Shown here piece after piece: positions 1 to 12,602 of a stretch of DNA of 20,790 nt. The notes beneath the pieces are model-generated. The model saw nothing but the letters and a program-made list of their open reading frames with translations. It was not told the DNA's origin and made no database searches. This DNA comes from a virus, in IMG/VR virus record IMGVR_UViG_3300010157_000304, positions 1 through 20,790 of that record. The stretch is one strand, 5' to 3'. The position numbers and the translations under genes were made by a program. How positions within the stretch are numbered: position 1 is the stretch's first letter; each line of letters opens with the position of its first letter.

Positions 1-1
1 T

Positions 2-1399
2 AGCCATGTAGAGCAAGACCCCATTAAATACTATGTACCAGATGAACTACTGCGCAAGCACCATGAGACTTGTGGAGATCACTTACCCAACAAGAACTGT
101 GCTAAAACTCAACGAGTAGTTGGTTACAAGCCGGTAACTGATACGGTACCAGTATACAAGAACATCCCTAACCCTACACCAGCACCCATCATCTCTTACA
201 CTGATCATTCAAAGACAGAATGGGATACTGATCCCGATACTGGTGTACGTAGAATTACTAAAATGGGACCTACAGTAACTGGCCCAGATCCACATCACCC
301 CAAAACCATTCAAGAACTTAGTGGCACTAAAGAAGTTCCCACTAGTCGTACAGAACCTGTCTTTGAAGACAAATCTGGTGAATGTCCTTTTGCCAATCAC
401 ATGAGATACTGTGACAAGTTCCATGATGAAGAATGCACTCTTAGGCCCCAGCTACAAAGAGTAGAAGGCAAGCCAGACATTAAACTTCAAGTAATGCCTT
501 TTAAATACAGTGTCGAGCATGGTGTCTATATGCCCATGGAGTCTTTTGGTAAAGACCGTCTATGGCAAGTCTCTGCACATGATGTAGAACACCTTGACCC
601 TCGTGATCAAAGTTGGCAGCCACACAACCACAACCCATTTAACCATGACGACATAGAGAGTCTTGCTAGAGGCAGTGAAGCCTGGCGAGACCTAGTGACC
701 AATCTCAATGAAGACTGGCAGAGTGGACGTCGTGTACGAGTCAACCCTGAAGCACCTCGACAGATAGTGCGTAAATGGGACCCTTTGGATATTCCTCGTA
801 TCCACAATAAAGAAAAACCAACCACTGAGCATGAAGAGATGGACGATGAAGATCTCAGGGGCTTTGGTGAAGAAGAGACCTTTGGTGGTAAGACACTAGA
901 GTCTAGTAGATTGAAGAAGTCAATGAAAATAGGCTATACCCACGTAGATGAGTCATTTGTACCTAGTGCGCCTTGTCGTTTTTGTGACGACCCCAGTTAC
1001 ACTAACGGTAAGGGTCCTGTAACACAGACCAGTACAGCAGAAGACGGTCGTGCACTTTATGCACATGATGAATGTGATGATCCCTTTGCTTTTAGCAACC
1101 ATTTTGTCTCACTGGAAAGTGGAGATCAACTCAAGTGTCCCAATTGTGGAGCTGAATGTGATACTCCTGGGCTCTGTGATCAATGTTCAGTGTCAGATGC
1201 ACAAAAATTCACTATTCAACCCAACCCAGTGGACAGTGATTTTATTCCTTCTAGAGTTTTTAATTCTTCAGCAGCACCCAACAGTAGTCTAGTGGTACCT
1301 ACTAAAGTTTTTAAGAACCCAGCAGTAGAGCAACCCGAGGTGGATGCTGAGACCCCCACAGATGTTGACAATGGCAACAAGAATATCCAACCGTTTTAG
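2..1399 (+). CDS. zinc-binding protein of unknown function, 5' partial
   Basis: The frame is open from the left edge (first codon AGC at position 2) and ends at TAG, giving 465 visible residues; the start lies outside the window, so the internal ATG at 263 is not the true start. No known family is recognised. The protein is hydrophilic, rich in Asp, Glu, His and Pro. It holds at least two Cys-pair sites: CRFC at 974-985 with a later HDEC, and a compact CPNC...CDQC zinc ribbon at about 1136-1186. An earlier Cys/His cluster (ECPF...RYC...EEC) may bind a third metal. The C-terminal tail is low complexity and carries PNPVDSDFIP (1220-1249), which reappears in the next protein, followed by two similar pieces, PSRVFN and PTKVFK. 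Its place upstream of the portal and the shared motif suggest a virion or assembly protein; that is inference. Confidence 0.8.
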   Translation, partial: SHVEQDPIKYYVPDELLRKHHETCGDHLPNKNCAKTQRVVGYKPVTDTVPVYKNIPNPTPAPIISYTDHSKTEWDTDPDTGVRRITKMGPTVTGPDPHHPKTIQELSGTKEVPTSRTEPVFEDKSGECPFANHMRYCDKFHDEECTLRPQLQRVEGKPDIKLQVMPFKYSVEHGVYMPMESFGKDRLWQVSAHDVEHLDPRDQSWQPHNHNPFNHDDIESLARGSEAWRDLVTNLNEDWQSGRRVRVNPEAPRQIVRKWDPLDIPRIHNKEKPTTEHEEMDDEDLRGFGEEETFGGKTLESSRLKKSMKIGYTHVDESFVPSAPCRFCDDPSYTNGKGPVTQTSTAEDGRALYAHDECDDPFAFSNHFVSLESGDQLKCPNCGAECDTPGLCDQCSVSDAQKFTIQPNPVDSDFIPSRVFNSSAAPNSSLVVPTKVFKNPAVEQPEVDAETPTDVDNGNKNIQPF

Positions 1400-1418
1400 C
1401 AGTAACAAATGTAATTCC

Positions 1419-1437
1419 CTAGCTATCTTATAGTTAG
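1419..1437 (+). other. RNA hairpin in the leader of the 172-residue gene
   Basis: CTAGCTAT and ATAGTTAG can pair over 8 base pairs (one G-U) around a CTT triloop. It lies between the stop at 1399 and the start at 1463 and has no T-run after it, so it is not a classic terminator. It could shape the leader or protect the message end. A short stem like this can occur by chance. Confidence 0.3.
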
Positions 1438-1462
1438 TGACAGAGACTTCAAAGGAAAAAAT

Positions 1463-1981
1463 ATGGAACCTCGTTTGAACGTAAAGATTGCCAACCTCTT
1501 TCTAGAGCCATTTGGTAATCCTAACCCCGTAGATGTTGACTTTATCCCCCAGGGTCAGCAAATGGACAATGACTTTATTGACGCAGACAGTAATGATGCT
1601 GCTCAAAACTGGCAAGTCGAACAGTCTTGGCGCAGTGACTGGGCCAATGAAATTGATCGTGACAATGCCAGTGGTCAAGCCCATGGTGCTGACCCCACTA
1701 ACCCCGGTAGTCAGACTGCCCCTTATGGACAGCCTACACTTGCTGCTCGTCAAGCTCAAGGTTTCAATAACCGCCAGGCTCGTCGTGGTGCTACCTTTGG
1801 TGTACTTGCTGAAGTAAGCAGTGGCACTCTAGTGGGTAGTCGTGTATATGCCAAGACGGCCAAGACCAATGTTCGTGGTACAGTTGTAGCCCTTGGTGAC
1901 CGTGAGTTTGCTGTTGTCTGGGATGACCGCACTGCTAGTGTTGAGCGCAAGTCAGACTTTGAGTTGGTAGTTAAAAACTAA
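1463..1981 (+). CDS. unknown protein with PNPVDxDFIP motif and SH3-like C-terminus
   Basis: 172 residues; the start is supported by AAAGGA about eight bases upstream of the ATG. Near the N-terminus (residues 20-29) it carries PNPVDVDFIP, the motif seen near the C-terminus of the preceding protein but written with different codons. The middle (about residues 30-95) is Gln, Asn, Asp and Gly rich and probably disordered. The last 50 or so residues read like a small beta barrel of SH3/KOW type: a V-R-G-T-V-V strand, a short turn, then F-A-V-V-W-D-D. That resemblance is by eye only. It ends five bases before the next gene and is probably cotranscribed with it. Function unknown; an accessory head or assembly protein is the best guess from location. 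Confidence 0.75.
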   Translation: MEPRLNVKIANLFLEPFGNPNPVDVDFIPQGQQMDNDFIDADSNDAAQNWQVEQSWRSDWANEIDRDNASGQAHGADPTNPGSQTAPYGQPTLAARQAQGFNNRQARRGATFGVLAEVSSGTLVGSRVYAKTAKTNVRGTVVALGDREFAVVWDDRTASVERKSDFELVVKN

Positions 1982-1986
1982 CTACA

Positions 1987-2631
1987 ATGATTAAAAATCA
2001 CAGAACCAAGATTCTCTCCTGGCCCCAGGAGGAAGTCCTTGAGGTTTCTACACACGGTCCTGATCTACATCAAATAGTAGGTCTAGAACGAGTGGAGTTC
2101 AAGGGTAGAGTTAGCAACTTCTTTTATGGCAGTATTGTAGACTATGATGGAGTCGAATATGACTTTGAATGGGATACACAAGAGCAAAAGTTGTCCCGAC
2201 TTGTTGGTTCTCAAGTCAATGGACTACTTTGGGGTCAAGCCTCTTTATTGGTTAGAGAGAGTTTGATGCAAGAAGAAGAAAAAGCAACTCCTCTTGAAGA
2301 CAAGATCGAAGAAAAGATTGAACAGGTAGTGGGCCAGTCGGCTTCTGCCCTAGTAGAGACTTTCACTGAAAGCTTTAAAGAACTCAATGACAAGATTGAG
2401 AACTTCCAGAAGCCTTCAATGGTTACTGTAGTAGAAACTCCCAGAGAAGTCTTTACTCCCGTAGCAGAACTTAAGCCACAACCGATTCCAGAAGTGTCTA
2501 TAGAGTACATAGATCAAGAAGAGTTTGAATTACCCATCCTCAAAGATGAAGATGATTTCTCGACAAATGCTCTACAGTTTTTGCAAGAGTCCAGTGGTGC
2601 TGATTTACAAATAGACTATCTTAGTCTCTAG
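1987..2631 (+). CDS. acidic coiled-coil protein of unknown function
   Basis: 214 residues. The gene begins five bases after the preceding stop with no clear ribosome site, so translation is probably coupled to the gene before it. Residues 35-70 form a compact beta-rich part (V-E-F-K-G-R-V, then V-E-Y-D-F-E-W-D) that loosely recalls the C-terminal barrel of its neighbour. Residues about 95-141 are a heptad-like run of Glu, Lys and Ile/Leu, a likely coiled coil. The C-terminal 70 residues are acidic and Pro rich. No membrane segment or cysteine motif is seen. It may be an assembly or scaffold-like helper, but no family is recognised. Confidence 0.75.
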   Translation: MIKNHRTKILSWPQEEVLEVSTHGPDLHQIVGLERVEFKGRVSNFFYGSIVDYDGVEYDFEWDTQEQKLSRLVGSQVNGLLWGQASLLVRESLMQEEEKATPLEDKIEEKIEQVVGQSASALVETFTESFKELNDKIENFQKPSMVTVVETPREVFTPVAELKPQPIPEVSIEYIDQEEFELPILKDEDDFSTNALQFLQESSGADLQIDYLSL

Positions 2632-2639
2632 GAGAGCAT

Positions 2640-3350
2640 ATGAATTACGCAGAAGGCAAAGGCCCACGTCAGATTAAGTCAACTTATGTTACCGGTAAGT
2701 TTGTTACCCTCTATGGCAATGGTGATGTCAACAACTACAACCCAGCTACAGTGCCATACCCCACTCAGTTAAGTGGTGCAGTACCCGGTGGAGTTGCTCC
2801 AGGTCTCAACATTAAAGTCAATGGCAATAACAGTCTCATTGATGTAGGTGCTGTCTGCTCCCCAAGTCCTGGTCTATCAGTTCAAGACATGGAAACACTC
2901 TTTGTAGACTTTTGGCTCAATCCAACTTTTAGTGGTCAAGTCTATCTTGAACTACAAGGCAGTAACAACAGATTTGTTAACAGCACTGTCTACCCTGCAG
3001 CCCAGTGGATAACAATTCTAACTGGTACGGCCAGTGGTACGGCAGCCGGTGTTACAGCTACCCTCAACAATACATCAACAGTACAGGAATATCCCAAATT
3101 GGCCTATCGAGTCATTGCCAGTGGTTACACTGGTGCCAGTGGCATCATTGACTGGGCCATTCCTGGACTATTTGTTGACTACTATGCTATGGGCATTGGA
3201 GCCAATGCTGCTGATGCCAATGGTGGTATTGGCCAGATGAGTATCCAGGGGCCTAGAGGGTACACTATCCAGAGTGGTCAATACATTACTACAGACATAG
3301 ATACAGTGCCTCTTGAAAATACCAAAGCTAATCACACCTGGATTGGCTAG
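2640..3350 (+). CDS. beta-rich virion structural protein
   Basis: 236 residues. AGGAG overlapping the previous stop region gives a good ribosome site for the ATG at 2640. Composition is dominated by Gly, Ser, Thr, Asn and Val with very few charged residues, as in capsid surface and tail proteins. The central part (V-D-F-W-L-N-P-T-F-S-G followed by V-Y-L-E-L-Q-G-S-N) alternates like a jelly-roll or immunoglobulin-like sandwich. There is no signal peptide or metal site. Its position just before the portal suggests a head-associated protein. The exact role is unknown. Confidence 0.75.
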   Translation: MNYAEGKGPRQIKSTYVTGKFVTLYGNGDVNNYNPATVPYPTQLSGAVPGGVAPGLNIKVNGNNSLIDVGAVCSPSPGLSVQDMETLFVDFWLNPTFSGQVYLELQGSNNRFVNSTVYPAAQWITILTGTASGTAAGVTATLNNTSTVQEYPKLAYRVIASGYTGASGIIDWAIPGLFVDYYAMGIGANAADANGGIGQMSIQGPRGYTIQSGQYITTDIDTVPLENTKANHTWIG

Positions 3351-3374
3351 TCCCCACTATAATAGGAGTCAATT

Positions 3375-3554
3375 ATGGAACGTTCCCAGAGAATCCAAAA
3401 AACCGCTACTCGCAGAGTTGCTCTTAATTTGAGCCTTAGTGGACTAACCATTGAGCCAAACGAACAAGGTGGAGACATCATTATGTTTGGCAGTAGTCCT
3501 AGCCTTTGCAAGAGTTGTGGTTTTGAGGTAGCTCCTGGCATCGGCTGCTGCTAA
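3375..3554 (+). CDS. 59-residue Cys-tailed miniprotein
   Basis: A 59-residue frame between the structural protein and the portal, with AGGAG seven bases before its ATG and its stop nine bases before the portal start. Four cysteines crowd the C-terminus: C45-x-x-C48-G, then C58-C59 as the last two residues. This looks like half a zinc ribbon plus a Cys pair, so it may bind one metal alone or complete a site in a partner. The N-terminal 25 residues are basic. No family is recognised. The good ribosome site and exact fit in the gap support a real gene despite its size. Confidence 0.65.
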   Translation: MERSQRIQKTATRRVALNLSLSGLTIEPNEQGGDIIMFGSSPSLCKSCGFEVAPGIGCC

Positions 3555-3563
3555 CGAGGACTA

Positions 3564-4928
3564 ATGGCTAACAAAGATTGGAGTGCTTCTTCCGAATTTC
3601 AACGGTTAAGAAGTGCTGGAACCGGTATCACTGGACCACGTAATCCAGTAGCCAATAGAGTGGCTATGAAAGACATGATGCGTATGGCCAGTAGCCCTGG
3701 TTCTATGTTCAATGATGTTGGACCTATGGCCACTGCTCTAGGCAATGGTGAAGGACGTCAACGTCTCAACAATCTTCGCAGTGATTCTTTTATGGGAGAT
3801 GTTGCTTCCACTAGTAATCGTAGAATGGCAGCTGCCACTGGTAGTGATGCTCAATGGGCTTTGCCCAAACTCCATGACCCTTTTGAGTACTGGCGTGAGC
3901 GCACCTGGTGGTTCAATATGGAGGACCCTGATGAACAAACTCGTAAAATTCGTGACTGGGCAAGACTACTCTACAGTACTCACTATCTCGTTCCCAGTCT
4001 CATTGATATTTATACCCGTTATCCTCTCCTGGATATTGAACTAGTTCACCCCGACAAAAGAATCAGTGATTTCTACAATGAACTATTCTTCAATGGTCTA
4101 GATTACCAAGAGTTTCTCTATGACCTTGGTCGTGAGCATTGGACTGTTGGTGAAGTATTTGCCATGGGCAGTTGGCATGACGGTATTGGAGCTTGGGAAG
4201 ATGATGAAATCATTAACCCCAATGATGTTGTTGTTGCAAAAAATCGGGCTCTAAGAACCTATCAGTATCACATTAAGGTTCCTGAAGAAATCAAGAGACT
4301 TCTTGAAAGCCGTGAGCCCAATCAAGAATATCAAATGCTTACCCAGCTGTACCCTGATGTAGTTGCTTGGGCTCGTCAAGACAAAGAGATTCCAGTCTCT
4401 GATGTCATTATGAAGCAGATCAAGTTCAAGACCAACCCATGGAGTGAGCACGGTACTCCTATTCTACTTAGAGCATTCCGTATGCTTATGCTAGAAGAAA
4501 GTCTCAATGCTGCTCAAGATGCCATTGCTGACCGTCTGTACAGTCCTCTCATTCTTGCCACTCTTGGGCTCCCAGATGTAGACCAAGACGGTCCATGGAT
4601 TCCAGATGCTCAAGAACTTCAAAGTCTCCGTGATGACTTGAGTATGGCCATTAACAGTGACTTCCGTCTAATGACCTATCACCATGGCCTAAAGATTGAA
4701 AATGCTTTTGGTCGTGAGGCTATGCCTCGTCTAGACAGTGACTTTGCACGTGTAGAAAGCAAAGTTATGCAGGTATTTGGTATCGGTGCTGAACTTCTAC
4801 AAGGTGGACGTCAGCAAGGCACTTATGCTGGTGGAGCACTTAACCGAGAACTCATCACCCAGCTTCTCAGTACCTATCAAAACAAGATTGAAAGATTCTT
4901 TCGTAGTCGTATGGAAGTGGTTGCTTAA
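3564..4928 (+). CDS. portal protein, N-terminal 454 residues (ends at in-frame TAA)
   Basis: The portal is the dodecameric ring at the packaging vertex through which DNA enters and leaves. This frame resembles large portals of myovirus-type phages by eye: a Trp-rich start of the folded part (F-E-Y-W-R-E-R-T-W-W at about residues 107-116), a Y-S-T-H-Y-L-V-P-S-L-I-D-I-Y segment, a G-R-E-H-W-T-V-G-E-V-F core strand, the N-P-W-S-E-H-G-T-P-I-L stretch, and a C-terminal V-F-G-I-G-A-E-L-L-Q-G-G region. The first 95 residues are a flexible, Met-, Asn- and Arg-rich arm. The start has GAGGA seven bases upstream. The frame stops at TAA (4926-4928), but the same frame continues without interruption into the next entry, and the family normally extends further. 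Portal identity is confident; whether this half is made alone is not. Confidence 0.85.
   Translation: MANKDWSASSEFQRLRSAGTGITGPRNPVANRVAMKDMMRMASSPGSMFNDVGPMATALGNGEGRQRLNNLRSDSFMGDVASTSNRRMAAATGSDAQWALPKLHDPFEYWRERTWWFNMEDPDEQTRKIRDWARLLYSTHYLVPSLIDIYTRYPLLDIELVHPDKRISDFYNELFFNGLDYQEFLYDLGREHWTVGEVFAMGSWHDGIGAWEDDEIINPNDVVVAKNRALRTYQYHIKVPEEIKRLLESREPNQEYQMLTQLYPDVVAWARQDKEIPVSDVIMKQIKFKTNPWSEHGTPILLRAFRMLMLEESLNAAQDAIADRLYSPLILATLGLPDVDQDGPWIPDAQELQSLRDDLSMAINSDFRLMTYHHGLKIENAFGREAMPRLDSDFARVESKVMQVFGIGAELLQGGRQQGTYAGGALNRELITQLLSTYQNKIERFFRSRMEVVA
4926..4928 (+). other. in-frame TAA interrupting the portal reading frame
   Basis: Codon 455 of the portal frame is TAA. The frame before it ends M-E-V-V-A and the frame after reads R-Q-G-H-Y-E-Y-R, then runs 332 codons from the interruption to the stop at 5924. 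One base change (GAA or CAA to TAA) explains it. No frameshift is needed, since both sides are in the same frame. Confidence 0.85.
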
Positions 4929-4979
4929 CGTCAAGGCCACTATGAGTACCGTAATGTTGGGGGACAGAGAATCCCCATC

Positions 4980-5924
4980 ATGGAAACTGTACTTATGGTT
5001 GATGAAGAGACCGGTGCAGAGTTTGTAGAAGAACGACCCAAATTGGCTATTCCAGAGGTACGTTTCCGTAGTATGAACCTACGAGATGAATCTATGGAAC
5101 GTCAGTTTCTACAGCAACTATCAGCCAATGGGTTCCCCATTAGTCTTGGTTCTATGGCTGTCAATATTCCAATTGACTTTGATGATGAACTTGATGCTCG
5201 TCGTGAAGAAAAGATCAAGACTGTTGTTGCTGAGCAGCAGTTCAAGAAAGAACTCTTTAATCGTCTAATGACTTTGGGACTTCCAATTCCCCCAGAGTAT
5301 GCTCAAGAATACCAAGCCTATCTTGCTATGATGCAAGACCCTGCATTGGCTGCTCAACTTGCTCCTGGAGCCATGGCCGGTCTAGAAAGTGCTCCTGCAG
5401 CACCCAATATGACTGGAGCAGGTCCTAGAAGTGATGTCACTCAAATCAATGAGATGGGAGTTGTTGCCGGTATTGAACAGCAGCAGCAACGTCAACGTCC
5501 TGAAGAAAGTTATGACCAACGCAAGACTGCACCTAAGCCCAATAAAAAGGGCAAGCCTAATGGTCCTCAAAAGAACAAAAAGACTGCCAGTGTTGGTGGT
5601 TGGGATGGGGACGATGATGACGAACCCTTTGAGACTGTTACTTATGGTGACCGTATGAAGTTTGCTGCTCCTCTTGAAAGCAAGAAGCGCAAGCGTATGG
5701 TATTGGCCAAGGGCATGAAGATTGTAACTGATGACAGCTATCAAAAGTTCAATGAAGATGAATTTAAAGAGCATCTTGCTAGTATTCTAGACGATCCGGA
5801 AGAGTCTTTGATTCCTAGACCGGGTACAAGCAACACTGACATCGACCCTATGGGTGCTGGACCCCACCATGACGATAGTGACGGCTTTAACCAAGTCGAC
5901 CGCACTGGTGATACAACCCCTTAA
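4980..5924 (+). CDS. portal protein, C-terminal part
   Basis: 314 residues from the first ATG after the TAA; in the same frame the coding signal starts earlier, right after 4928. The N-terminal part (M-E-T-V-L-M-V-D-E-E-T-G, then P-K-L-A-I-P-E-V-R-F and R-Q-F-L-Q-Q-L) reads like the clip and stem helices expected after the point where the previous entry stops. A long helix with E-E-K-I-K-T-V-V-A-E-Q follows. From about residue 150 it becomes Gln- and Lys-rich and disordered, with a poly-Gln run and a G-D-D-D-D-E acidic patch, typical of portal C-termini. Upstream of ATG 4980 there is only GGGGGA about fifteen bases away, too far for a good ribosome site. Joined, the product would have 786 positions. 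It may be a readthrough product, a reinitiated subunit, or the dead half of a broken gene. Confidence 0.75.
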   Translation: METVLMVDEETGAEFVEERPKLAIPEVRFRSMNLRDESMERQFLQQLSANGFPISLGSMAVNIPIDFDDELDARREEKIKTVVAEQQFKKELFNRLMTLGLPIPPEYAQEYQAYLAMMQDPALAAQLAPGAMAGLESAPAAPNMTGAGPRSDVTQINEMGVVAGIEQQQQRQRPEESYDQRKTAPKPNKKGKPNGPQKNKKTASVGGWDGDDDDEPFETVTYGDRMKFAAPLESKKRKRMVLAKGMKIVTDDSYQKFNEDEFKEHLASILDDPEESLIPRPGTSNTDIDPMGAGPHHDDSDGFNQVDRTGDTTP

Positions 5925-5956
5925 TGTAAACCCTCTAAGAGAATCAACTAAAAGAC

Positions 5957-6139
5957 ATGACTAGATTTCTTGATAATACAGATCCTAAAATTCTGCCTCG
6001 TCAAGCTGCTGCCAAAGTGGCTTTTCTAAGTGTAGTTAGTAATCTAGAAAAGATTGCCATCATTGAAGAGGGTGAAGGTGTCATTGCCCGTAACTCCAAC
6101 AAACTAGATCTTAGCAATTCGATCTACGAACAAGACTAA
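5957..6139 (+). CDS. 60-residue protein of unknown function
   Basis: A short frame placed between the portal and the next gene, whose ATG overlaps its stop in a TAATG. A weak purine-rich site (AAGAGA) lies about 18 bases upstream and AAAAG lies closer. The protein is probably mostly helical (P-R-Q-A-A-A-K-V-A-F-L-S-V-V-S), with a short I-A-I-I-E-E segment. No cysteines, signal peptide or family match is seen. Tight packing and stop-start coupling to the membrane protein downstream support it as a real gene. Confidence 0.6.
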   Translation: MTRFLDNTDPKILPRQAAAKVAFLSVVSNLEKIAIIEEGEGVIARNSNKLDLSNSIYEQD

Positions 6140-6465
6140 TGTCAGCTGTAGCCCATTTTCTAGGCATGACTGTATCAGACTGGGCCACACTTAGTGGTTT
6201 AATGATTTCAGTGGGAACTATTTTGTTCTTTGTCAAAAAGATGCTGGTCAAGTGGGTAGCAGAAGACGTCAAAGCTCTTAAACTAGAAGTAACCCCCAAT
6301 GGTAGAGATACACAAAAAATGGGTGACATTGCAGCACGTACAGAAACCAAGATAGACAATCTGTACAGTTTTATGGAACGTTATGCCATCAAAACTGATG
6401 ACTTAGAAAAAGAAGTATCCTACATCAGAGGGCTTCTAGAGAACACCCACGGCAAGGACAAGTAA
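6139..6465 (+). CDS. single-helix membrane protein with coiled coil
   Basis: 108 residues, started by the ATG in TAATG at 6137-6141 and ending in another TAATG. One hydrophobic helix spans about residues 15-32 (W-A-T-L-S-G-L-M-I-S-V-G), followed at once by K-K-M-L-V-K-W, which favours the C-terminus in the cytoplasm. Residues about 75-100 look like a coiled coil. Small one-helix phage membrane proteins of this layout are often called holins or are annotated as unknown families such as DUF2746. Its location between the portal and protease rather than beside the lysin makes a holin role unproven; a membrane-anchored assembly factor is also possible. Confidence 0.7.
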   Translation: MSAVAHFLGMTVSDWATLSGLMISVGTILFFVKKMLVKWVAEDVKALKLEVTPNGRDTQKMGDIAARTETKIDNLYSFMERYAIKTDDLEKEVSYIRGLLENTHGKDK

Positions 6466-7130
6466 TGATTAAGTTTGGTGCCCCTACAATAACTCTTATG
6501 GGCCGTGGTGCTCACTCATCCAATTCAGTTAGAGAGAGCATTCCTCTACATGGAGTGGGTTGGGAAGACTTTAATTTTAAAGAAGCCAGTGGTTTTGTCT
6601 ACACTGTAGTTCGTGCCATTAGTAGTCGTGTCAATGCCAACTATGATGGATGGCCAGTTGATGAACTCAAGACCAGTTACAAGACTTTTGTAGGCCGTCC
6701 GGTCTATGTAGAGCACAACAATCAAGACCCCAAGAGAGCTCGTGGAGTTATCCTTGATGCTGTCTACAAAGAAAGCAAACTGGCTAGTGGTATCACTGAT
6801 GCCAGTGTCTACTGTCTAATGGAAGTAGATGCTACAAGTTTCCCCAAATTAGCCAATGCCATTATGGAGGGCAAAATCAACGGTGTAAGTATGGGAGCCG
6901 ACGTAGACGGTACCACTTGCAGTGCCTGTGGACGTTATGCCAGTAAGCCCAGTGAATATTGTGTACACATTCCAGCTCTCAAAGGCCGTAAAGTTGTAGT
7001 CTACAAGGGTGCCAAGCGCATTGAGTCTACAGTCTGGGAGAACTGCCACAAACCCAACTTTTTTGAACTCAGTTACGTCTTTGATCCAGCTGATGAGAGT
7101 GCACACATCATGCACCGTAAGAGAGTATAA
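6465..7130 (+). CDS. prohead maturation protease with zinc knuckle
   Basis: 221 residues, coupled by TAATG to the gene before. Prohead proteases cut scaffold and capsid arms during head maturation. The family pattern is clear: V-G-R-P-V-Y-V-E-H-N with His84 as likely catalytic base, I-N-G-V-S-M-G-A-D with Ser142 as likely nucleophile, and Asp122 in M-E-V-D as a possible third member. The C-terminal P-N-F-F-E-L-S-Y-V-F-D-P-A-D-E-S-A is the usual last strand. Between Ser142 and that strand sits a metal-type site, C152-x-x-C155 and C166-x-H168, with C194 nearby. It lies between portal and scaffold/capsid genes as expected. Catalytic residues are assigned by pattern, not tested. Confidence 0.82.
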   Translation: MIKFGAPTITLMGRGAHSSNSVRESIPLHGVGWEDFNFKEASGFVYTVVRAISSRVNANYDGWPVDELKTSYKTFVGRPVYVEHNNQDPKRARGVILDAVYKESKLASGITDASVYCLMEVDATSFPKLANAIMEGKINGVSMGADVDGTTCSACGRYASKPSEYCVHIPALKGRKVVVYKGAKRIESTVWENCHKPNFFELSYVFDPADESAHIMHRKRV

Positions 7131-7132
7131 CT

Positions 7133-7882
7133 ATGCCAGTATTTAAGGTTAGTGAAGACTTACAAAAACTATCCAAAGAACTACTTCGCATTCAAATCAC
7201 TGTATTGGGTGACTGCCCTCAATGTGGTGGTAGTCAATATCGTAGTGGAGTATGTGAAGACTGTGCCTACATTAGTCCTGAAGTACAGGAAGCCATTCAG
7301 TCATGGCAACTGAGTCAAGGGCTGAGTCCTGAACAAGCTCAACGAATGCAAATGCAACAAGAGCAAGCTCGTCAGAGTCTACAAATGGGCACTCCACTGG
7401 GCACCAATCAAAGCTCTGTAGTTAAGGCAGTCGTCACTGTAGTTGATGCTTTTCCTCAACTGGCTGCAGCCAAACGCAAGAAGGACTCAGATGAGTGCCC
7501 TCGCTGCCAACGCAAAGGTTTTGACCTAGAGTGTGAAGGTTGTGGTTATGAAGAACCACCCAATGACCTCAATGTTCCTAGACCTCAGTTTACAGGACCA
7601 AGTCCTGATCTATTAAAGACACGTAGAATTAATTTTTTACCTAGTTCTGACTCTTTCCATACAAAAGTGGAAAAGAAAAAGAATGAAACCAAAAAGAAAA
7701 CCAAAGAAAAGTCCAAGAAGGCAGCACGAGATCAACAAAAAACTCCTACACCTCCCAACTTGGACAATGTAAACACCGTAAGAACGGACCCTAAACCACG
7801 TATGGACGATGCTGTTGCCCAGCTTGCCCTATCTGATTTCTATAACGGGTCCAATCCAGACACTAGCGAGGAGCTACAATGA
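7133..7882 (+). CDS. double zinc-ribbon, Lys-rich head assembly protein (candidate)
   Basis: 249 residues, two bases after the protease and overlapping the next gene by ATGA. Two zinc ribbons stand out: C28/C31 with C41/C44, and C122/C125 with C134/C137. Between them is a Gln-rich helix (about residues 65-85), and after them a strongly basic stretch (about 178-200, many Lys). The C-terminus turns acidic. No enzyme motif is seen. Its position between the prohead protease and the scaffold candidate suggests an internal head protein or scaffold partner, and the basic segment could touch DNA. That assignment rests on location; no family is recognised. Confidence 0.75.
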   Translation: MPVFKVSEDLQKLSKELLRIQITVLGDCPQCGGSQYRSGVCEDCAYISPEVQEAIQSWQLSQGLSPEQAQRMQMQQEQARQSLQMGTPLGTNQSSVVKAVVTVVDAFPQLAAAKRKKDSDECPRCQRKGFDLECEGCGYEEPPNDLNVPRPQFTGPSPDLLKTRRINFLPSSDSFHTKVEKKKNETKKKTKEKSKKAARDQQKTPTPPNLDNVNTVRTDPKPRMDDAVAQLALSDFYNGSNPDTSEELQ

Positions 7883-9375
7883 GTCGATTTGACGATGAAC
7901 TCACCAGAACTGCCGACAATGCTTGGCAAAATTCAGGTGCACCAAAGCCTGTTGTACAACGTGGTACTTATGACCAAGTAGACAACATGAACCTAGATGG
8001 TCCTTTTGGCCTAAGTTCACAAAACCCAGACCTAGTTGATGATGTCCAGGCTTGGGCCGTCAATGAACCAGCACACCGTATGCTTCAGGTCACGGACCTT
8101 GATGCTGCTGCCACTGACATTATGGGTGGACCTGGCAGTAGTGCAGTATATGCCAGTGCTGATGAAAGTCTATACCAGGTCTACAAGGCCAGTCGTAAGC
8201 TTCGTGACGCCATTGAGGCCGGTCTAGATTTTGACTTTACCAATCTATTTACAGCTGCCAATCACACTGCCAAGGCCATTCGTAGTGCCAGTAGTGATGG
8301 TTGGCTAATTCAAACCACTGCTGGACTCAACAATCTAGTTCAAGATGTAGAGACTGACCTTGTCAACACTGGTGACTACCGTCAAGCCTACAAGAATCTA
8401 GTGGAGTTTGAAAGTCTACTTGAAGAAATGAACAAGTATGCCGGTATGGACTTTGATGCTGAAGACGAGCCTACTGCTGAAGAACTGCGTCGTGCAGATG
8501 AAACGGCCATTGACAGACAACGTGAAGAAGCACTGAACTTTGAAGAAAGTCCTGGAGTAGGCAACCGTCCCGGCATTGGCTATGAACTACCCAATGCAAC
8601 CACCGAGCGTCCTTTGGGTGCAGCTGGACTCGATGAGGAAGCTGAATACAAGCCTAGTCGTGCCTGCCCTGATTGTGGTACTCAAAGAGTCAAGATCCCC
8701 GGCAAGAAGAGCCTGGCTTGCCCAGACTGTCATGCTGACAAGTTCCTAGACAGCACTACTAAAGTTAATCCTCATAATGCCAAAGTCATTACTGCCAAGG
8801 CCATTCAAGCCGACAGTTCAGGCCGACAAGAGACACTGCAGCATGACGATGTTCGCAATCTAGACAATGCCGAGCTCTACATGAATGACAATGTCATGGC
8901 TGATGCCACTGTTGACGTCACTGCTCCACAGGTTGTCAACGGTGAAGATGCCGGTTATGTAGACTATTACAATGATGGTGCTGAAACCGGTATTACACCT
9001 GGCCAGGAACCTCACAAGCAAGAAGTATTCCCCTACGACGCCACCAACCCAGCCTTGGCTCCTTATGCCGGTACGGTTGCTGCTCGTGAAAAGATTTTTG
9101 AAGCCCTACAGGTTGTAGAGCGCCTAGAGAAGCTGGGTATGGTCCAAGATACAGACCGTGCCAAGCACATCGCAAAGTTTGAGCAAATGTCAGATGCCAA
9201 GTTGGCAGGTTTCAAAGCCAGTCTTGACATGCTCGAAGAGTCTGGGGCCCGTCAACCCCGGAGCCAGAAAGTGGCTAGCGGCAATAACCGTATGCCCGAA
9301 ATGGGTCGCCTGACGACGGCCTCAACTTCCAACCGCCAGTCGATTTCGTCTGACGATTGGTTGATGACACTTTAA
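7879..9375 (+). CDS. putative scaffold / head assembly protein with zinc ribbon
   Basis: 498 residues, started by the ATG of the ATGA overlap. The protein is acidic and Asp, Ala, Asn rich, with long helical stretches (for example A-S-R-K-L-R-D-A-I-E-A-G near residue 105 and I-F-E-A-L-Q-V-V-E-R-L-E near 410). A zinc ribbon lies at C263/C266 and C281/C284. The last 45 residues are basic and Ser/Arg rich, then end D-D-W-L-M-T-L. That end has a different base composition from the rest (more C and G at third positions). An acidic helical protein between protease and capsid genes is the usual place of a scaffold, whose C-terminus binds capsid protein; a zinc ribbon in a scaffold is not usual. Scaffold is an inference from order and composition. 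Confidence 0.7.
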   Translation: MSRFDDELTRTADNAWQNSGAPKPVVQRGTYDQVDNMNLDGPFGLSSQNPDLVDDVQAWAVNEPAHRMLQVTDLDAAATDIMGGPGSSAVYASADESLYQVYKASRKLRDAIEAGLDFDFTNLFTAANHTAKAIRSASSDGWLIQTTAGLNNLVQDVETDLVNTGDYRQAYKNLVEFESLLEEMNKYAGMDFDAEDEPTAEELRRADETAIDRQREEALNFEESPGVGNRPGIGYELPNATTERPLGAAGLDEEAEYKPSRACPDCGTQRVKIPGKKSLACPDCHADKFLDSTTKVNPHNAKVITAKAIQADSSGRQETLQHDDVRNLDNAELYMNDNVMADATVDVTAPQVVNGEDAGYVDYYNDGAETGITPGQEPHKQEVFPYDATNPALAPYAGTVAAREKIFEALQVVERLEKLGMVQDTDRAKHIAKFEQMSDAKLAGFKASLDMLEESGARQPRSQKVASGNNRMPEMGRLTTASTSNRQSISSDDWLMTL

Positions 9376-9403
9376 TCCCATCCCCTACTAAGGAGAAAGA
9401 AAA

Positions 9404-9916
9404 ATGCTGCAACTTAACAGCGTAGCAAACGTTGGGGTTCACCGTACGTGCACCCCATTGTACGAGAAGTACCAGGCTACACCCTACAACACCTTCCTGG
9501 ACCCCAATGAGACGGGCAACATCTACAGTGGTATGGTTATGTACCGCAGTGGTGCAGACACCGTTGCATTGGCCAGTGGTGCCGGTACAGGTAAGCCTTT
9601 TGGTCTCTCATGTCTAGACCGTAATGCCAACATTGATGATGTTACACAAGTCGGTATCAATGCCTGGGCTGTATGGCTCGGAGGCTCCAATGCCTTCTTC
9701 CAGATTACAGCTCCAGCTTTTGACACCACCCAGAGCTACACAGTTTCTGGTAACGGTGCTCGTGCTTATCTGTACACCGCCAGTGGTACTCCCGGCCAGC
9801 TAACAACAACTAGTGGTGCTGCCAGCACATTGGGTGCTACCCCAGTTGCTGAGCTCATCGACGTTGTAAGTCCCACACAAATTGTTGTCCGACTAGTACC
9901 TGTCGGTACTCTCTAA
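9404..9916 (+). CDS. putative capsid decoration protein
   Basis: 170 residues with a strong AAGGAG site nine bases before the ATG, which suggests high output. It is Gly, Ala, Thr, Ser and Val rich with few charges, and looks all beta. Segments such as G-M-V-M-Y-R-S-G-A-D-T-V-A-L and G-I-N-A-W-A-V-W-L-G-G resemble small head-stabilising proteins that sit on capsid threefold or hexamer positions. It lies directly upstream of the major capsid gene, the usual place for a decoration protein. A minor tail role cannot be excluded. No metal site or signal peptide is present. Confidence 0.65.
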   Translation: MLQLNSVANVGVHRTCTPLYEKYQATPYNTFLDPNETGNIYSGMVMYRSGADTVALASGAGTGKPFGLSCLDRNANIDDVTQVGINAWAVWLGGSNAFFQITAPAFDTTQSYTVSGNGARAYLYTASGTPGQLTTTSGAASTLGATPVAELIDVVSPTQIVVRLVPVGTL

Positions 9917-9939
9917 TCCCCTGAAAGGAAATAAGTAAA

Positions 9940-10941
9940 ATGAGTACATTTTCAGCTGCCGATCACTTGGCTCCAAGAACAGCCAAGCGCTCGGATGACT
10001 ATGTAGCCGATATTGTAGAGGCCAAGGAGCGGTTACACACCGCTACCGGTCGTACAGTGGCTACCAAGCAAGAGAAGCAACGCCGTTTGGCTCAAATTCT
10101 AGCCGACAAGGACAACTACATGGTTCGTCTTGGTCAGGGTATGATTGGTCCAATCCAGTTGAAGCTACGTTACCAAGGTATGACCCGTAACGTACTTCTC
10201 GAAGACCCACTAACCCCCGGTGTACCGGTTATGTACGACGTCCTAGACGAGTACGGCCAGGCCTACATTCTTTCGGGCAATGAGGGTGAAGTTCGAGTTA
10301 CTCCTTTCGAAGGTAAGAAAGTTCCAGTACGTTTGTTCCGTATTGCCACCTTCCCCCAAATCAAGAAGGAAGACCTCTGGTACCTCCGTGTTAACATTGT
10401 AGAGTACGCTCAGGACATGTCCAAGCAAGCCATCATGATGCAGGAAGATGCTCGTCTAATCACGATCCTCGAAGCTGCCATCAATAACTACGCTGTCGAC
10501 CCTAACCACACCGTATCACCAAACCACGTTGTCAACGAGTTGTCGGGTTACATTACTCCTGACTCGATGTACGACCTAGTTTCGTTGATCGAAGTCCACC
10601 AGTTGGAGGCAAGTCGCTTGCTATTCAACCCAATCGACTACCGTGACCTTTACAAGTGGGACATCAACCAGACCGGTTGGGCCTTCAAGGACCGTGTTGT
10701 TGCTGGTGAGCGCATCGTTCAATTCGGTGGGTTCCAAGTTCAGCGCTCGATCGAAGTACCTCAGGGCACTGTCTACATGACACCAAGCCCAGAGTTCTTG
10801 GGTGTATTCCCAGTTATGTACTCGCTTGACGTCGAAGAGAACCACACACCCGAGAAGTTCCACAAGGGCTGGGTAATGGACGAACTCGTTAGTGAGATCA
10901 TCCTCAACCCACGTGGTCTTGGTAAGATCGTTAAGGCTTAG
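9940..10941 (+). CDS. major capsid protein (HK97-like fold)
   Basis: 333 residues with AAAGGA before the ATG. The layout fits the HK97-fold capsid proteins of larger phages: a charged N-terminal helix (about residues 20-60) that could be an arm, a long E-loop-like beta part (about 75-135, with V-P-V-M-Y-D-V-L and V-R-V-T-P-F-E-G-K-K-V-P-V-R-L-F-R), a central helical part with L-I-T-I-L-E-A-A-I, and late strands I-V-Q-F-G-G-F-Q-V-Q-R-S. Codons are biased to C-ending forms (TTC, AAC, GAC, TAC) unlike flanking genes, as expected for the most abundant protein. It sits after protease, scaffold and decoration genes in the classic head order. Cleavage by the protease upstream is likely but the site is not visible. 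Confidence 0.85.
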   Translation: MSTFSAADHLAPRTAKRSDDYVADIVEAKERLHTATGRTVATKQEKQRRLAQILADKDNYMVRLGQGMIGPIQLKLRYQGMTRNVLLEDPLTPGVPVMYDVLDEYGQAYILSGNEGEVRVTPFEGKKVPVRLFRIATFPQIKKEDLWYLRVNIVEYAQDMSKQAIMMQEDARLITILEAAINNYAVDPNHTVSPNHVVNELSGYITPDSMYDLVSLIEVHQLEASRLLFNPIDYRDLYKWDINQTGWAFKDRVVAGERIVQFGGFQVQRSIEVPQGTVYMTPSPEFLGVFPVMYSLDVEENHTPEKFHKGWVMDELVSEIILNPRGLGKIVKA

Positions 10942-10956
10942 TCTTAATATTTACAC

Positions 10957-10994
10957 TAGGTGGGGCCTGGGCCTAAAAATCTAGGTCCTGCCTA
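10957..10994 (+). other. long RNA hairpin after the capsid gene
   Basis: Positions 10957-10971 can pair with 10980-10994 over 15 positions around an eight-base loop (CCTAAAAA). Five of the pairs are G-U, which are stable only in RNA of the + strand, so the fold belongs to the late transcript. An alternative shorter stem GGGCCTA with TAGGTCC uses the same bases. No T-run follows, so it is probably not a simple intrinsic terminator; 3' end protection of the capsid message or partial termination are possible. Confidence 0.5.
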
Positions 10995-11056
10995 ACGTAA
11001 CAAGTAGTAAAGATACCCTCGAAGTAACAACTAGGTATAAGATGCGAAAGTCGTGT

Positions 11057-11094
11057 CTTTGCCCAGGAGAGCTCCACTCTCCCTTGAAGCAAAG
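11057..11094 (+). promoter_or_regulatory. two-tier hairpin that overlaps the ribosome binding site
   Basis: An inner stem GGAGAG (11066-11071) with CTCTCC (11077-11082) and an outer stem CTTTGC (11057-11062) with GCAAAG (11089-11094) are nested. The outer 3' arm shares AAAG with the ribosome site AAAGGA (11091-11096) of the gene starting at 11104. The fold could therefore lower or time translation of that gene. The 162-base gap 10942-11103 holds this, the capsid hairpin and no coding frame. Confidence 0.5.
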
Positions 11095-11103
11095 GAATAA
11101 AAA

Positions 11104-11664
11104 ATGGTAAAGACAGTTTCTAAGTCAAATGATAGCAGTAGTGAAAGTCGTCCAGTTCCCGTAAAGGATCTAGGCGGACACTATGAAGATCACAAGGCTG
11201 ACCCCATCGATGTAAGTAGTGCTCGTGCAGTAGTCCCACCAACCTTTAAGGGTATGCAGGACATCAGTACTAGTAGCTGGATCGAGAATCTGATGAATGC
11301 AGGCACAGTGTTTACAAGCCCCAAAGGTGCTTTTAAGCTGTCTCCAAATGGTTTTCATGGTTCAGTACAGACCATTGATGAAGCCATTCGTAGAGATGCC
11401 TATGTTTTAAGAGCAGTACAACGCGGTAAGATTCGTTTTCTCAATGATGACGAAGCTGCTGTTAGAATCAACGAGTTGATTGATGAAGAGTCTGCCCATG
11501 GCACTCACCTAGATCGACTCAAAGAAAGTCTTGGGGCCAATGCTTCTGAGAATAACGGTCTCTACAAGATCGATCTTCCAGATGAAGCAGAGCCCAAGGG
11601 TCGTTCTCAAACTTATGAAGAGATCTGGGAAAGCTCAGCCAGTAATGCTAAGCCTAGCCTTTAA
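11104..11664 (+). CDS. unknown protein downstream of capsid
   Basis: 186 residues. AAAGGA lies about eight bases upstream of the ATG inside a structured leader. The first 60 residues are polar and Ser rich (probably flexible); then come a W-I-E-N-L-M-N-A-G turn, a short beta part (F-T-S-P-K-G-A-F-K-L), and a helical, charged part with R-G-K-I-R-F-L-N-D-D-E-A-A. The C-terminus is acidic. No cysteine, membrane segment or known motif is present. Placement just after the capsid gene suggests a head completion or connector protein, but the sequence does not confirm that. Confidence 0.7.
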   Translation: MVKTVSKSNDSSSESRPVPVKDLGGHYEDHKADPIDVSSARAVVPPTFKGMQDISTSSWIENLMNAGTVFTSPKGAFKLSPNGFHGSVQTIDEAIRRDAYVLRAVQRGKIRFLNDDEAAVRINELIDEESAHGTHLDRLKESLGANASENNGLYKIDLPDEAEPKGRSQTYEEIWESSASNAKPSL

Positions 11665-11723
11665 TCTCTAGAACGGCCTTCGTAGTTTAACAACGTAGAC
11701 TTCGGTCTACATCTAGAGAAGGA
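11665..11723 (+). promoter_or_regulatory. structured leader with cUUCGg hairpin and 8-bp clamp
   Basis: The gap between two genes is almost fully used by RNA structure. TCTCTAGA (11665-11672) pairs perfectly with TCTAGAGA (11712-11719), closing a loop that contains GTAGAC-TTCG-GTCTAC (11695-11710), a stem capped by the very stable C(UUCG)G tetraloop. The clamp ends within the ribosome site GAAGGA (11718-11723) of the gene at 11731. It may control translation or shield the message from nucleases. Confidence 0.55.
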
Positions 11724-11730
11724 AATTCAG

Positions 11731-11922
11731 ATGGCTAATACCAATGCCGCAGGAACCAACTACTACTTCCCGTTCACTGCTCAGTTGAACAATGGAGTGA
11801 CACCTAGCGGTGCCTCCTACACTTTTAACATTGCCACCAGTGGCTGGGCCAGTCAGAACCAAGCCGGTTTTGTCTTCCAAACTGGTCAATACAATTCCAA
11901 GAGAGAAGGAAGTGGTAACTAA
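11731..11922 (+). CDS. 63-residue structural-type protein
   Basis: 63 residues with the strong site AGAAGGAA before the ATG. It is Asn, Gly, Thr, Ser and aromatic rich (Y-Y-F-P-F-T-A-Q-L, then G-F-V-F-Q-T-G-Q-Y) and nearly uncharged until the last K-R-E-G-S-G-N. It looks like a short beta protein or one strand module of a larger assembly. It is coupled to the next gene by TAATG, so the two products may act together in equal amounts. No known family. Confidence 0.65.
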   Translation: MANTNAAGTNYYFPFTAQLNNGVTPSGASYTFNIATSGWASQNQAGFVFQTGQYNSKREGSGN

Positions 11923-12602
11923 TGGCTGTCAACGTATCAGGAGAAATGGCCCTCAAGCAGGCCATCAGAGGACAAATCGTCGGTGGTGCCAACACTTGGT
12001 GGAGTAACCCCGATTACGGTATGGCAGTAGATGCCTTTGACACCAACTATGGAGTCAAGCTGGTTGACTTTGTACCTAGTGGTGGTGTCTACACGGTAAG
12101 TGGTACAGGCAACTGGACTACTGCAGTGACCGGTACAGTCGGTGCCACCAGTACTGTCAGTGGACTAGTTGTATCATTAAATGCTGTTGCCCCTAGTGGA
12201 GTTGTAATTCTGTCTCCTCGCAAGGCTACAGACCTTCTAACCAAGACCACCACTCAACTCTATGTTGTAGCTGCTACAGGTACGGCTCCTACACTAACCA
12301 ATGTTAGTGGTACTACCATTACTTCTGTAACTGGTAACCTAGCCACTCTAAGTGCTGCCTTTCCCAACTACTATGGTCCTGGCAATGCAGTTCCTACCTG
12401 GGTTGACGATGCTACAGCACACGCCTACCAATTGGACGGTGCCGGTGCCATTGTTGTCAATAGTGGTCTTGTAGTTCAAAAGCAAGTTCGTCAAATCAAG
12501 ACCGACCCTGCCGAGACCATGATCTTGGACGGTTACTTTATTGCTTACAGTGGCAATAACTTCCAGACTCAGCAGAAGAACACCAAGCAACAGCAGTGCT
12601 AA
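11922..12602 (+). CDS. beta-rich virion structural protein
   Basis: 226 residues, begun by the ATG of a TAATG overlap. A helical, polar N-terminus (K-Q-A-I-R-G-Q-I-V-G-G-A-N-T-W-W) leads into a long Thr, Val, Ser, Gly, Ala region (residues about 50-150) with alternating pattern, typical of surface-exposed phage beta domains. It ends with a Gln- and Lys-rich tail and a single terminal Cys. No enzyme motif. It probably belongs to the head-neck or tail surface; the exact part is not recognised. Confidence 0.7.
   Translation: MAVNVSGEMALKQAIRGQIVGGANTWWSNPDYGMAVDAFDTNYGVKLVDFVPSGGVYTVSGTGNWTTAVTGTVGATSTVSGLVVSLNAVAPSGVVILSPRKATDLLTKTTTQLYVVAATGTAPTLTNVSGTTITSVTGNLATLSAAFPNYYGPGNAVPTWVDDATAHAYQLDGAGAIVVNSGLVVQKQVRQIKTDPAETMILDGYFIAYSGNNFQTQQKNTKQQQC

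Follow-up and report, generated by a model that had tools for sequence, protein, structure and literature searches.

Gordonia phage Pupper, Rhodococcus phages Finch and E3 and Mycobacterium phage Pleione (Bixzunavirus) each have a single annotated portal gene, 829-879 codons long, and none of these four portals contains an internal stop. Portal proteins are essential. Here, we analysed a stretch of IMG/VR record IMGVR_UViG_3300010157_000304 (positions 1 to 20,790, 20,790 nucleotides, hereafter the window), in which a portal of the same family, PHROG 2833, is interrupted. The portal frame, examined over positions 3564-5924, has 786 codons up to its natural stop and a single in-frame TAA at codon 455 (Table 1). 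The first open reading frame, 3564-4928, starts with the ATG at 3564 and codes for 454 amino acids before the TAA, and the frame then resumes with CGT (RQGHYEYR...) and runs for 331 sense codons and a stop. The family profile was matched over both halves of the frame, at profile positions 65-456 by the first and 459-595 by the second. Since these positions adjoin, we conclude that the two parts are a single interrupted gene, and that the second is no chance open frame. The initial annotation, which had described a portal frame cut by one TAA with intact coding on both sides, is thereby confirmed. The first half shares approximately 38-39% identity with its best matches among the PHROG 2833 portals, which are from Gordonia and Mycobacterium phages, and the second half 44-50% over its first 120-130 residues. 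The window differs from Pupper, Finch, Pleione and E3 in that these phages have one open frame with a glutamate where the window has its stop.

Table 1. Features of the interrupted portal gene, in window coordinates.
Feature	Position	Strand	Remarks
Portal gene 5' part, codons 1-454	3564..4925	+	PHROG 2833, E 3.7e-119; 38.8% identity with Gordonia phage Pupper portal
In-frame TAA, codon 455, private to the window contig	4926..4928	+	Glu codon in all relatives
Portal gene 3' part, codons 456-786 and natural stop	4929..5924	+	PHROG 2833, E 2.4e-41; joined to the 5' part in relatives
ATG proposed as restart, internal Met473	4980..4982	+	Met in 29/29 close relatives within one continuous frame; Tyr in four named phages

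Among the PHROGs and Pfam profiles, the portal family of the window is recognised in PHROGs only. Pfam-A gave no match to either portal half, and the Pfam portal models PF04860 and PF07230 did not match the window, the second of these searches being run without a positive control. Comparison of the portal with PDB sequences likewise gave no match. An AlphaFold2 model built with 29 relatives was poor and too weak for use (mean pLDDT 43, pTM 0.28); in it, codon 455 falls close to the end of a helix spanning residues 422-457.

A search of IMG/VR with the first half retrieved 77 distinct related loci, one of which is 100% identical over the whole first half, the rest being 64-91% identical in their best segment; the second half retrieved loci only on contigs already reached with the first. 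The whole frame, with an X in place of the stop, was aligned to all related loci, and a glutamate codon was found at the position of the TAA in all 77 contigs (67 GAA, 10 GAG). The stop is thus missing from the relatives: no related contig (0/77) has one at codon 455, and the residue aligned with it is also glutamate in Pupper, Finch, E3 and Pleione (4/4). The glutamate belongs to a stretch, V453-A-E-R-Q-G458, that is invariant in an alignment of 29 intact IMG/VR relatives, and conservation among these relatives is still high to about residue 600. Judging from this alignment, a portal product ending at residue 454 would miss this conserved region. From the known essentiality of portals, we infer that such a 454-residue product would be unable to build a portal.

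The most informative relative is L001 (IMGVR_UViG_3300027749_000701), a near-identical strain that overlaps with window positions 1-12453 and whose portal frame is intact, coding for 786 amino acids. An uninterrupted frame is expected of a PHROG 2833 portal, and interruption by a TAA at codon 455 was found in the window contig only, L001 being uninterrupted. Over the first 12,092 bases the window and L001 differ at 13 single bases, of which ten are synonymous, two missense and one nonsense. This preponderance of synonymous differences suggests that purifying selection has acted between the strains. The nonsense change, which is the TAA at codon 455 and a transversion, is an outlier to this pattern. 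All three differences located 3' of the stop are synonymous. When IMG/VR was scanned for the exact sequence surrounding the codon, any base being allowed at the variable position, the contig of L001 was the only one found, although such a scan may omit records that lie very close to that of the window.

Two further observations concern the comparison with L001 and its surroundings. Approximately 224 bases at window positions 12095-12318, within the open reading frame 11922-12602, are very unlike L001 and contain in-frame indels, whereas the two contigs are 99.9% identical before this block. The protein encoded by this reading frame, whose gene lies downstream of that for the major head protein, is altered in its middle only, and the block has the appearance of an allele exchanged by recombination. 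In addition, L001 carries five tRNA genes (Asn, Asp, Ser, Gln and Met) at positions 311-710, upstream of the structural genes, and several other relatives also have tRNA genes upstream of the portal.

We propose, with high confidence, that the stop is a one-base nonsense substitution private to the window contig. Either the consensus contains an error of sequencing or assembly, or the population sampled included a defective genome. On this reading, the phage is a large tailed one with a distant relationship to the Bixzunavirus (cluster C1) mycobacteriophages and an ordinary portal encoded by a single gene, and the copy of this gene on the window contig has a nonsense change of one base at codon 455. 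In its functional form, the phage makes an unbroken portal protein of about 786 residues. As to whether the consensus is in error or a real defective or minority genome was sampled, we estimate the chances to be about even. A second pair of contigs illustrates that these assemblies do contain private breaks of one base: in L052, an additional A within a run of A residues (position 4836 of L052) disrupts the portal frame, whereas that of L049, 99.88% identical over 10.3 kb, is intact. The window resembles this case, and private breaks in metagenome-assembled genes in general, in that a single base is affected in one contig and a near-identical relative is intact; it differs in that its break is a substitution and not an added base. 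Consensus errors and defective or minority genomes are both ordinary causes, and the stop at codon 455 is therefore an ordinary finding that involves no new mechanism.

Three options had been raised for the stop in the initial annotation, namely a sequencing or population variant, programmed readthrough, and a portal of two subunits with a restart at the ATG at 4980. The first of these is supported, as every relative including L001 has a sense codon at this position, and the other two are not. Programmed or tolerated readthrough of the TAA would yield a short and a long form of the portal, and the intact coding on either side of the stop, together with the solely synonymous differences from L001 downstream of it, would fit such a process. 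However, intact downstream sequence is equally expected from an error or a very recent stop. As no relative carries the stop, there is nothing conserved that could be programmed; moreover, a suppressor tRNA was found neither in the window nor in 36 related loci, and the window has no match to an Rfam family. We consider readthrough to be highly unlikely. More unlikely again is the two-subunit portal, in which the first half would end at the TAA and the second would be restarted at the ATG at 4980. This ATG, located 52 bases past the stop, is real and in frame, but what it encodes is an internal methionine, Met473, which is replaced by a tyrosine in Pupper, Finch, E3 and Pleione. It is also not preceded by a well-placed ribosome-binding site: the 25 bases 5' of it contain the sequence GGGGGA, in our judgement too far upstream for a usual one. 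The break between the subunits would lie inside the invariant stretch, and a check for relatives with two separate portal genes revealed none among the 77 contigs and the four named phages, the latter having one gene each.

Reassignment of TAA to an amino acid in this phage is the least credible reading, and we regard it as practically negligible. A single in-frame TAA inside a conserved gene could be taken to indicate it, but most genes in the window end in TAA and the alignments of the conserved genes to their relatives finish at those stops, in agreement with the earlier view that the codon is not reassigned. In addition, no tRNA genes were found in the window, and no anticodon that reads a stop codon was present among the phage tRNAs of the 36 related loci, including the array of L001, these loci being stretches and not whole genomes. 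None of the three, readthrough, restart or recoding, has positive support. Given that L001 is a contig separate from the window and that there are real strain differences between the two, the TAA might instead be fixed at codon 455 in a real strain that still makes its portal, either by leaky readthrough or by restarting to give two chains; this, too, we consider very improbable. Searches of the literature for truncated portals and for in-frame stops in phages from metagenomes turned up nothing bearing on codon 455.

Some relatives have a long insertion at about residue 290 of the portal, and some also a second one at about residue 114. In L059 (6165-9668) and L075 (9989-14737), the portal frame is open through the insertion at about residue 290, an in-frame intein, and L075 has a second in-frame intein at about residue 114. 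LAGLIDADG and intein-splicing domains were detected in both contigs, the LAGLIDADG domain above the Pfam cut-off in both and the splicing domain in L075 only. Judging by a break in the match at about residue 290, L060-L066, L068-L070, L072-L074, L076 and L077 would carry the intein at this site as well. Portal inteins have already been recorded in cluster C1 mycobacteriophages (PMC5050341), and those of the relatives have no bearing on codon 455.

Taken together, our analysis calls mainly for caution: when an isolated in-frame stop turns up in a single metagenomic phage contig, near-identical relatives should be consulted before recoding or a split gene is invoked as the mechanism. Were the stop real and fixed, it would mean that the portal ring of this phage is built despite a break amid a highly conserved region.
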